DNA from: Candidatus Tepidiaquacella proteinivora
GTDB lineage: Bacteria > Bacteroidota > Ignavibacteria > Tepidaquicellales > Tepidaquicellaceae
NCBI GenBank assembly: GCA_013348845.1
Contig: CP054675.1
Coordinates: forward strand, 2,241,501 to 2,305,500
Direction of reading: 5' to 3'
Length of the DNA: 64,000 bases
Positions within the stretch are counted from its first letter, which is position 1, and each line of letters begins with the position of its first letter. Below, one piece after another: positions 11,554 to 56,064 of the stretch. A program made the position numbers and the translations under genes. The notes below the pieces were generated by a model. It did no database searches. It saw only the letters and a list, made by a program, of their open reading frames with translations, and was not told the origin of the DNA.

Positions 11554-13152
11554 ATGAGAATAAAAATTTTATTTCTGACCATTTTAACTTTGTTTTACGT
11601 TATTAGTTTTAATGCTTATGCTCAAAAATATAACAGACAAAAAGTTACTTTAAGTTCAGCAATTGCTCCGATAACAGTAAATCTTAAGTCTCTTTCAGTG
11701 CCAAGTCCAATAGTTGAAAGAGGTATTGAAGAGAATAAAGAAATGGGACCATTCAAATCACTCGAAGAATTTGAGATGGAACAAAAAAGACAAGTAATCC
11801 CGAAACAATTTTTTAACATTCATTTCTCTGATAAAGAGGAAATCTCATATTTATCTAATATTAATATAGTTTCTTCTTTTGTTGAAAATTCAAGGATAAA
11901 ATTAACACTTGAGCCCGGAGATCCTTCTATCGCTGTTGGTAAATCTCATGTTGTATTATTGAATAATGATGGAATTTATATTTACTCAAAGCAGAATAAT
12001 CAATTGGTTTATAAAAACAGTTTCAGAAATTTCTTTAACTCTGCAATGCCGATTTTTGACCCGATAATTATTTATGATGTTGATTATGAAAGATGGGTCT
12101 TTACAGTTGTTGCAAGGGATGATAATTATTTTCAATCTTTCATTTATATTGCTGTATCTCAATCTAATGATCCTACCAAAGATTGGTTCTATTATATTAT
12201 CGATGGGGGACAGGATGGGATGATTAAATCTAAGTATTGGGCAGATAGACCCTATTTATCAATTTCAAGTGATATTAAAGATAAAAAGAAAGGTGCGGTA
12301 GTTATTACCTCAAATCAATATGATTTTTATTCCTGGTATTATCAGTATTGTAAAATAAGATTATTTAAGAAAGAGGATTTATATAGCGGTAATCCTTTAA
12401 TTGAGTATTGGGACTTCTGGCGTTTTCAAAGTAATTTAACATCAGATATATTTAATTTAGCTCCTGCTACTCATTTGACTCCAACAAATAATGCAGAAAT
12501 TTACTTTTTCCAGACAAATGCTAATGGAGGTAACAGGGTTTATTTGTGGAAGTTGAGTAATCCATTATCCAATAATCCGGAGTTAAAAGAAATTAGCAGT
12601 ATCTCTGTAACGAATTATTATATTCCCCCTATGTCTCCTGTAAAAGATCAGAATAAGTTTATAAATATCTTCGACTGTAGAGTTTTAAATATTATGTATG
12701 CTGATAATATTTTGTATGCAGCGTATAATACTAAATATGACTGGGGGGAAGGGAATAACTGTATTTTTCGTGTGTTGAAGATATCAACACAAAATGGAAA
12801 CCTCATATCAGAAAGTGGATTTGGAGCTAAAGGATATTGGTATATGTTTCCTTGTGTAATACCTATTAAGAATGGAGATAGATTCAGTGATACTTTACTC
12901 GTTGGTTTTGCTCGAAGTTCAAATACAATATATCCGGAAGCAAGGGTAGTTTTATATGATGGAATTTCGAAATGGGGAAAATCATATTTAGTCTCCGAAG
13001 GTGTTAAACCAAAAGAACCAATGGGAAGATTAGGTGATTATAATTCAATAACTATTGACCCTTATAATTTTTCTAATTATTGGTTTGCTTCTTGTATTGC
13101 CGGTACTAATTTATGGGCTACAGGTATTGCAAATATTGAGATTATCAGATAA
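11554..13152 (+). CDS. Large exported protein of unknown function
   Basis: A 532-aa protein with an N-terminal signal peptide (cleavage near NAYAQ). The mature part has repeated aromatic-rich beta strands, for example DPIIIYDVDYERWVFTVVA and SNDPTKDWFYYIIDG, a pattern seen in Bacteroidota exported proteins with propeller-like folds. No sorting domain of the NPFNP type is seen at the C-terminus, so secretion by T9SS is not supported. There are no catalytic motifs I recognise. It is followed by the metK riboswitch region. Confidence 0.8.
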   Translation: MRIKILFLTILTLFYVISFNAYAQKYNRQKVTLSSAIAPITVNLKSLSVPSPIVERGIEENKEMGPFKSLEEFEMEQKRQVIPKQFFNIHFSDKEEISYLSNINIVSSFVENSRIKLTLEPGDPSIAVGKSHVVLLNNDGIYIYSKQNNQLVYKNSFRNFFNSAMPIFDPIIIYDVDYERWVFTVVARDDNYFQSFIYIAVSQSNDPTKDWFYYIIDGGQDGMIKSKYWADRPYLSISSDIKDKKKGAVVITSNQYDFYSWYYQYCKIRLFKKEDLYSGNPLIEYWDFWRFQSNLTSDIFNLAPATHLTPTNNAEIYFFQTNANGGNRVYLWKLSNPLSNNPELKEISSISVTNYYIPPMSPVKDQNKFINIFDCRVLNIMYADNILYAAYNTKYDWGEGNNCIFRVLKISTQNGNLISESGFGAKGYWYMFPCVIPIKNGDRFSDTLLVGFARSSNTIYPEARVVLYDGISKWGKSYLVSEGVKPKEPMGRLGDYNSITIDPYNFSNYWFASCIAGTNLWATGIANIEIIR

Positions 13153-13232
13153 AATCTTCTTTTAAAGTAACCGGAAGATATTTTATTTAATTTCTTATTT
13201 GAAAAAGTGAAATAATATTAATATTTTTATTC

Positions 13233-13317
13233 AGCATCAAGAGTATCAAATATTTTTATTTGATCGGCAACCGAGGTGAGACCCCACGGTGCTAAAATGA
13301 TGCGCGGAAAAATTCCG
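13233..13317 (+). promoter_or_regulatory. Compact SAM-I-clan riboswitch aptamer upstream of metK
   Basis: SAM-I hallmark elements occur in order: ATCAAGAG (13236-13243), CGGCAACC (13265-13272) and GGTGCTAA (13288-13295). P1 is GCATCA (13234-13239) with TGATGC (13298-13303). P2 is only 7 bp with a 6-nt loop (13245-13264), too short for the usual kink-turn. P3 (13270-13290) is ACCG/CGGT, a mismatch, then GG/CC. P1 closes immediately after the GCTAA joining segment, so P4 is absent. A 5-bp hairpin (13305-13317) follows P1 instead. The P2 loop could pair with the A-rich segment after GCT, and the P3 loop with GTCTC at 13324. I read it as a SAM-I/SAM-IV-like variant that shuts off metK when SAM is high. 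Confidence 0.8.
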
Positions 13318-13323
13318 AAAAAA

Positions 13324-13389
13324 GTCTCTCAATAAGAAAACCGCTTATTGAGAGCTATAGAAATGCTTGAAATAAGCGGTTTTTATTTT
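13324..13389 (+). terminator. Riboswitch expression platform (antiterminator/terminator)
   Basis: Two mutually exclusive hairpins share CTTATT. The first pairs CTCTCAATAAG (13326-13336) with CTTATTGAGAG (13344-13354). The second pairs AAAACCGCTTATT (13337-13349) with AATAAGCGGTTTT (13371-13383) and runs into a T-rich tract, as an intrinsic terminator does. The terminator ends 37 bp before the metK ATG. This is the expected layout of a transcription-terminating OFF switch. Confidence 0.8.
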
Positions 13390-13420
13390 AATATGAAAAT
13401 TTATAAATAAAAAAATAAAT

Positions 13421-14548
13421 ATGGAAAGAGAATTTCTTTTTACATCTGAATCAGTATCAAACGGACATCCTGATAAAATTGCTGACCAGATTTCCGATGC
13501 AATTCTTGATGCCTATTTAAAAGAAGATGAAAATGCGAAAGTTGCCTGTGAGGTTCTTATTACTGAAAACCTTATTGTTATAACAGGTGAATTTAAAAAG
13601 AATTCAAATAATAGTATTGATGTTGAAAATATTGCCAGAGAGGTTCTTAGAAATATTGGATATGAAAAAAGATGGAACTTTGACCCGGATAATTGTAAAA
13701 TTATTCCTATTATTAAAGAACAATGTGAAGAAATAACAAAAGGTGTAGAAAAATCACAGGGAAAAATTGGTGCCGGTGACCAGGGAATGATGTTCGGTTA
13801 CGCTACTAATGAAACATCAGAATTTATGCCATTACCTTTGGTGCTGGCACATAAATTAATGATGGAACACGATAAATTAAGAAGGGTAAAAGGTTTTGAA
13901 TGGATTGGTCCGGATGCTAAGTCTCAAGTTACTGTAAGATATAAAAACAACAAACCACTTTATGTAGAAAATGTAGTGGTATCAACTTTACATTCTAATA
14001 ATATGAGTGAAAAGGATGTTAAAGAACAAATAAAAACTTACTTAATTGATAAGGTTGTTCCTAAGGAAATTCGTTCTGATAATTTTTCCACATTTATAAA
14101 TCCGGCAGGTGCATTTACGAAAGGTGGGCCAAAAACTGATACAGGTTTAACTGGAAGAAAAATTGTTGTGGATACTTATGGTGGGTTTTGCCCCAATGGA
14201 GGCGGATGTTTTTCTGGTAAGGATGCTACAAAAGTAGATAGGTCTGCTTCATATATGGCAAGATTTCTTGCTAAAAATATTGTTGCTTCCGGATATGCTG
14301 AGAGATGCACTATTCAAATTGCTTATGCTATTGGATGTACAAGTCCGGTTTCTCTTATGGTTGACTTGCATAATACCGGAAGAATTGAAGAAAAAATACT
14401 TGAGAAAAAAATAACAGATAAGTACGATTTGTCTCCGGGAGGCATAATTGAAAAACTCAAATTAAAACAACCTATATATCAGAAGACAGCCGCATTTGGT
14501 CACTTCGGAAGAGCAGATTTTGAATGGGAAAAAATTGAAAAAATTTAA
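13421..14548 (+). CDS. metK: S-adenosylmethionine synthetase
   Basis: Makes SAM from ATP and methionine. At 375 aa all signature motifs are present: GHPDKIADQISDAILDAYL, GAGDQGMMFGYA, KSQVTVRY, and the P-loop-like GGGCFSGKDATKVDRSASYM. It is cytoplasmic and tetrameric or dimeric in known members. The ATG is 37 bp after the terminator of a SAM-I-clan riboswitch, so the product likely feeds back on its own gene. No neighbouring methionine-cycle gene is present. Confidence 0.98.
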   Translation: MEREFLFTSESVSNGHPDKIADQISDAILDAYLKEDENAKVACEVLITENLIVITGEFKKNSNNSIDVENIAREVLRNIGYEKRWNFDPDNCKIIPIIKEQCEEITKGVEKSQGKIGAGDQGMMFGYATNETSEFMPLPLVLAHKLMMEHDKLRRVKGFEWIGPDAKSQVTVRYKNNKPLYVENVVVSTLHSNNMSEKDVKEQIKTYLIDKVVPKEIRSDNFSTFINPAGAFTKGGPKTDTGLTGRKIVVDTYGGFCPNGGGCFSGKDATKVDRSASYMARFLAKNIVASGYAERCTIQIAYAIGCTSPVSLMVDLHNTGRIEEKILEKKITDKYDLSPGGIIEKLKLKQPIYQKTAAFGHFGRADFEWEKIEKI

Positions 14549-55647: not shown

Positions 55648-55730
55648 GGGTAGGTAGCGAAGTGGTTAAACGCATCAGACTGTAAATCTGACGGCTTAGG
55701 CCTTCGGAGGTTCGAATCCTTCCCTACCCA
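55648..55730 (+). tRNA. tRNA-Tyr (anticodon GTA)
   Basis: An 83-nt class II tRNA with a long variable arm. The acceptor is GGGTAGG/CCTACCC, the anticodon loop CTGTAAA (GTA), T-loop TTCGAAT, and discriminator A. No CCA is encoded. First of a four-tRNA cluster. Confidence 0.97.
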
Positions 55731-55740
55731 CAGACCCCGC

Positions 55741-55813
55741 GCGGGAGTAACTCAGTTGGTAGAGTCACAGCCTTCCAAGCTGTTGGTCGCGGGTTCGAGT
55801 CCCGTCTCCCGCT
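55741..55813 (+). tRNA. tRNA-Gly (anticodon TCC)
   Basis: A 73-nt cloverleaf: acceptor GCGGGAG/CTCCCGC, anticodon loop CTTCCAA (TCC), T-loop TTCGAGT, discriminator T. It lies 10 bp after tRNA-Tyr. No CCA is encoded. Confidence 0.97.
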
Positions 55814-55820
55814 CTGATTT

Positions 55821-55893
<73 letters not shown>

Positions 55894-55991
55894 CATGAAG
55901 ATATGTTTACCAAATAGAGATAGGTGTACAAATTATGAGAACATTTTTTTATTTGAAAATAATCTTTTTATTTCTTATTATTATCAAAAAT

Positions 55992-56064
55992 ACGGGTGTA
56001 GCTCAATTGGTAGAGTAGCGGTCTCCAAAACCGTCGGTTGGGGGTTCGAGTCCCTCCTCCCGTG
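55992..56064 (+). tRNA. tRNA-Trp (anticodon CCA) with acceptor U-U mismatch
   Basis: A 73-nt cloverleaf with anticodon loop CTCCAAA (CCA), D-arm AGCTCAATTGGTAGAG and T-loop TTCGAGT. The acceptor ACGGGTG/CTCCCGT has a mismatch at pair 6-67 (T-T). Discriminator G. It is 24 bp before secE, the usual arrangement. Confidence 0.96.

Follow-up and report, generated by a model that had tools for sequence, protein, structure and literature searches.

A SAM-I/IV riboswitch before a divergent metK paralogue of Candidatus Tepidiaquacella proteinivora, with a pseudoknot predicted to gate a transcription antiterminator

The window, a 64,000-nucleotide stretch of contig CP054675.1 of Candidatus Tepidiaquacella proteinivora, carries on its plus strand a gene (13421-14548) for a divergent second paralogue of methionine adenosyltransferase (MetK, 375 aa). 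The product matches TIGR01034 (519 bits) and the N, M, and C domains of Pfam, and its nearest named record, the MetK of locus L019 (SKW224), is 81% identical. The genome encodes two metK genes with 52% identity between them, the other being located on the minus strand of L114 (2893-4038). The window copy forms a clade of its own with two copies from the same genus (support 100/99, on long branches), and the L114 copy, which begins some 17 nt past the gene before it, groups with the ordinary MetK of Ignavibacteria. Two metK genes are also present in genome G005, and only the divergent one was found in genome G090. The SAM riboswitch described here is attached to only one of the two paralogues. 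The product of the gene upstream of the leader (11554-13152) has 532 aa, begins like a signal peptide, and matches nothing in Pfam or NCBIfam, and a cluster of four tRNA genes lies further downstream (55648-56064, plus strand). A weak snoRNA match inside metK was dismissed as chance (E 0.84, below the cutoff). No leader peptide was found: in each of the three forward frames of the leader, stops leave only short open stretches.

Positions 13229-13333 of the plus strand match the SAM-I/IV riboswitch model RF01725 over its full length (cmscan score of 63.6 bits, gathering cutoff of 41.1, model positions 1-99 of 99), and metK starts 87 nt past the end of this match. SAM is the ligand predicted from family membership. 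The SAM-I-type core motifs occur in order, where the earlier note had placed them, together with a 6-bp P1 (GCATCA, 13234-13239, with TGATGC, 13298-13303) on which the sequence, the minimum-energy fold, and the covariance-model alignment agree. P1 encloses P2 (13245-13252/13257-13264) and P3 (13266-13293). P2 is present as that note had described, except that it folds as 8 rather than 7 bp, uninterrupted, with a 4-nt loop and no internal loop in the minimum-energy fold. On the 3′ side of P1, the fold and the structure line of the covariance model place a further hairpin, P5 (13305-13317, CGGAA-AAA-UUCCG), which is followed by a 6-nt A-rich linker and then by the 3′ strand of the pseudoknot PK-2. 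Once P5 is recognized, the anatomy is that of SAM-I/IV.

The earlier note had overlooked P5 and had described a SAM-I riboswitch that lacks P4 and has an added pseudoknot. Judged from its sequence, the element upstream of metK is instead an ordinary SAM-I/IV aptamer. Only a few nucleotides separate P3 from P1, and the sequence, the fold, and the covariance model all show no hairpin between GGTGCTAA and the P1 3′ strand; no standard P4 had been missed. Such an absence is normal for RF01725, as the Rfam consensus lacks P4 and so do all 30 aligned family members. Neither of the two marks of SAM-I (RF00162), a P4 helix between P3 and P1 and an internal loop or kink-turn in P2, is present, and P2 is one helix, unlike the split P2a/P2b of SAM-IV, a family that also has a PK-1. 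The score and length of the match, the P2 without an internal loop, the P5 located 3′ of P1, PK-2, and the downstream metK all point to SAM-I/IV. A search for RF00162 found no match in the whole genome or in the three genomes of the genus, while such matches are present in 18 of the 44 genomes of the order.

SAM-I/IV aptamers turned up in 17 of the 391 class genomes, in 34 of 395 from the phylum, in 6 of 29 from the own family, and in 4 of 80 from a second family belonging to the class. Nine leaders were selected by eye for strong terminators, before the P1-exchange analysis, and are referred to as terminator-type: the window, L002, and L003 before metK, and L004, L007, L008, L011, L018, and L116, in which the following gene, named from its reading frame, resembles one for O-acetylhomoserine sulfhydrylase (metY type). 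The metK leaders of the genus number three, two of which are almost identical in their platforms.

The 5′ strand of PK-2, GAGAC in the P3 loop (13278-13282), is the exact complement of GUCUC (13324-13328), which lies 6 nt after P5. This complementarity is as the earlier note had read it. In the window alone, a loop/tail match equal to GAGAC/GTCTC arises in 63 of 5,000 shuffles (about 1%). Measured in eight terminator-type leaders, the spacing from P5 to PK-2 is 5 to 7 nt; the crystallized SAM-I/IV sequence has 6 nt. Differences of a base or two among P3 loops and P5 linkers threw the PK-2 strands out of register in a MAFFT alignment; column-wise pair counts were left unused and a swap test was applied instead. 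Among 31 nonredundant aptamers, loops paired with their own tails at a mean of 10.26, versus 8.05 (standard deviation, 0.39) with swapped tails (z 5.7), and none of 50,000 permutations was as good; the signal is weaker in six terminator-type aptamers alone (518 of 50,000). The sequences themselves vary widely. GAGAC/GUCUC is seen in L001 and L002, L004 and L008 have CCAAG/CUUGG, L007 has CGGG/CCCG, and L011 and L018 have UCCAGGA/UCUUGGA. The metK leader of L003, from the same genus, has AGCCGGAA/UUCUGGCU, a wholly different sequence in which both sides have changed and the pairing is kept, which is the covariation that the earlier note had called for. GAGAC/GUCUC is PK-2, a regular feature of the SAM-I/IV family, and the comparison with relatives shows that the pairing is real. 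A clear PK-2 is absent from some members (e.g., L005, L087, and L089). Aptamers without a clear PK-2 in L005, L006, and L013 precede genes for proteins of 205 to 219 aa that are not obvious methionine genes.

Two alternative structures follow the aptamer on the plus strand. The antiterminator pairs 13326-13336 with 13344-13354 (11 bp), with an optional 2-bp extension (13323-13324 with 13355-13356); its segment folds at -14.9 kcal/mol (z -4.8, 0 of 200 shuffles as good), and the 11-bp stem is identical in L002. The intrinsic terminator (13337-13389) pairs 13337-13349 with 13371-13383, encloses an apical 4-bp hairpin, and ends in a T-rich tract, with a fold of -22 kcal/mol (z -6.8, 0 of 200 shuffles). 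Its stem has the 13 bp that had been proposed for it, or 14 bp in the minimum-energy fold. The two structures are mutually exclusive and the antiterminator is able to form first, being seen from about position 13350 in the growing transcript and the terminator from about 13382. A scan also reports the 11-bp stem with a T tract as a minus-strand terminator (13354-13326), which would place it outside the switch altogether. We regard this as extremely improbable and rejected it: no long minus-strand open reading frame reads into 13354-13326, both neighboring genes are on the plus strand, and the minus-strand T tract is the opposite strand of the linker between P5 and PK-2, a linker that is rich in A in most relatives.

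Of the 11 antiterminator pairs, the 3′ strand of PK-2 covers the outermost 3, and it takes in part of the two-pair extension as well, in agreement with the overlap between GTCTC and the first bases of 13326-13336 seen at the outset. As the 3′ end of the folded leader was moved stepwise from 13318 to 13390, P1, P2, P3, and P5 stayed unchanged in every minimum-energy fold, and among the aptamer parts only the PK-2 strand is therefore seen competing with the platform. With 13324-13328 barred from pairing, the antiterminator is 6.0 to 8.3 kcal/mol less stable, and the predicted barrier to its conversion into the terminator falls from 11.5 to 4.9 kcal/mol; these figures come from the pseudoknot-free model of ViennaRNA and do not include the energy of PK-2 itself. 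The proposal that capture of GTCTC by P3 weakens the antiterminator thus holds in computation, and we infer the step in which bound SAM would bring it about. The contact is one of a loop with a single strand, not the loop-loop contact that had been suggested. When the price of retaining P5 and PK-2 was compared with that in shuffled platforms, only L007 and L008 gave a clear signal; the window was borderline (53 of 1,000), and L002, L003, L004, L011, and L018 did not reach significance. As this test is only partly positive, a general claim of PK-2 exchange in terminator-type leaders remains unproven.

The intermediates (ligand-free folds) predicted for the six metY-type leaders draw in the PK-2 strand, often together with the 3′ strand of P5. 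In L004, L007, L008, and L116 an intermediate is predicted to pair CUGAAA of the P5 3′ strand with UUUCAG inside the terminator, and the same pairing is predicted in L011/L018 at some transcript ends. These folds would suit a switch in which the whole P5/PK-2 subdomain is exchanged, the ligand-free state opening P5 too and PK-2 being one of two exchanged strands. For the window we consider this quite unlikely, as its P5 remains folded at all transcript lengths, next to the antiterminator as well as the terminator.

Exchange of a P1 strand is the usual logic of SAM-I riboswitches. Applied here, the antiterminator would capture a P1 strand when SAM is absent and PK-2 would be a structural brace only. 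Many SAM-I/IV relatives in the same phylum (L009, L065 to L068, L070, L083, and others) have a complement of the P1 5′ strand in their platforms, which suggests switching by recapture of P1; in L070 and L083 it occurs together with a terminator-like hairpin. Across the family, the P1 5′ strand pairs with the platform in 14 of 30 other members (no more than 10 of 1,000 shuffles as good), for example, CATCAAGA with TCTTGATG. In the window, however, neither strand of P1 matches the platform better than shuffled sequence does (5′ strand, 215 of 1,000 as good; 3′ strand, 33 of 200), and P1 is intact in every minimum-energy fold of the leader, so we judge P1 exchange unlikely at this locus. The 5′ strand gives the same null result in all nine terminator-type leaders (121 to 908 of 1,000). 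The contrast between terminator-type leaders and those with P1 exchange has a Fisher p of 0.015 with shared ancestry ignored. A switch without exchange of a P1 strand, as the earlier note had envisaged, agrees with these results.

Computation and comparison show the parts of the aptamer, an antiterminator and a terminator that exclude each other, and a PK-2 strand that overlaps the antiterminator. Building on them, we consider it likely that the element is a transcription-terminating SAM-I/IV riboswitch that provides feedback control of the metK paralogue through an antiterminator gated by PK-2, not through P1 exchange. When SAM is scarce, PK-2 would not be held and GUCUC would join the 11-bp antiterminator once 13354 has been transcribed, allowing RNA polymerase to pass and metK to be made. 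When SAM is bound, PK-2 would be stabilized and the antiterminator left with only 8 A/U-rich pairs; the apical terminator hairpin would then be free to form, the terminator would zip up, and transcription would stop. The signal would travel through PK-2 with both P1 strands kept in place. The antiterminator must act by delay, since the terminator is the more stable final fold, and PK-2 in the SAM-bound state would be expected to shorten that delay. The expectation that SAM turns metK off through the terminator is supported as well.

Such a PK-2-gated switch would be in large part the expected use of a family-defining pseudoknot, with component parts that are already known, and the abstract of the 2014 SAM-I/IV structure reportedly calls PK-2 part of the regulatory switch. 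The remaining interest lies in the platform, whose transcription antiterminator would be gated by PK-2 with no part played by P1, next to relatives that apparently use P1. A wider proposal, on which our judgment is evenly balanced, is that the terminator-type SAM-I/IV riboswitches of the class represent a separate type of platform, where P5/PK-2 supplies the exchanged strand and P1 is freed from switching, and that other relatives in the phylum recapture the P1 5′ strand. If right, the locus would be a clean natural example of a peripheral pseudoknot, not the P1 helix, carrying the ligand signal to a terminator. With relatives in the same riboswitch family that apparently use P1, the family would then be a good test bed for platform swapping behind one aptamer.

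The SAM-I/IV crystal structure 4L81 is reportedly that of Trausch et al. 2014. Like SAM-I (S-box) riboswitches, the window element has the SAM-binding core motifs and appears to exert transcriptional OFF control over a metK-type gene. SAM-I riboswitches have a P4, an internal loop or kink-turn in P2, and switching by P1-strand exchange, none of which was found in the window. The cryo-EM structure of SAM-IV shows P5 followed by a PK-2 formed by the 3′ end and has no P4 (PMC6890682). The window element shares the lack of P4, the P5 hairpin, and the PK-2 formed from the 3′ end; unlike SAM-IV, with its split P2a/P2b and PK-1, it has a P2 of one uninterrupted helix. SAM-I/IV riboswitches likewise have a P2 without an internal loop (PMC2864571), and the crystallized SAM-I/IV RNA has the same order of elements, with a 6-nt linker followed by GUCCGU that pairs with ACGGAC of the P3 loop (PMC5393176). 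The window element resembles this family in its core motifs, uninterrupted P2, P3, P5 3′ of P1, PK-2 strand 6 nt after P5, and location before SAM/methionine genes. Between its P3 and P1, the crystallized RNA carries an additional hairpin, CACCGGAGACGGUG, that is absent from the window element and from all 30 aligned members, and the window element differs from it further in that its PK-2 strand overlaps a transcription antiterminator.
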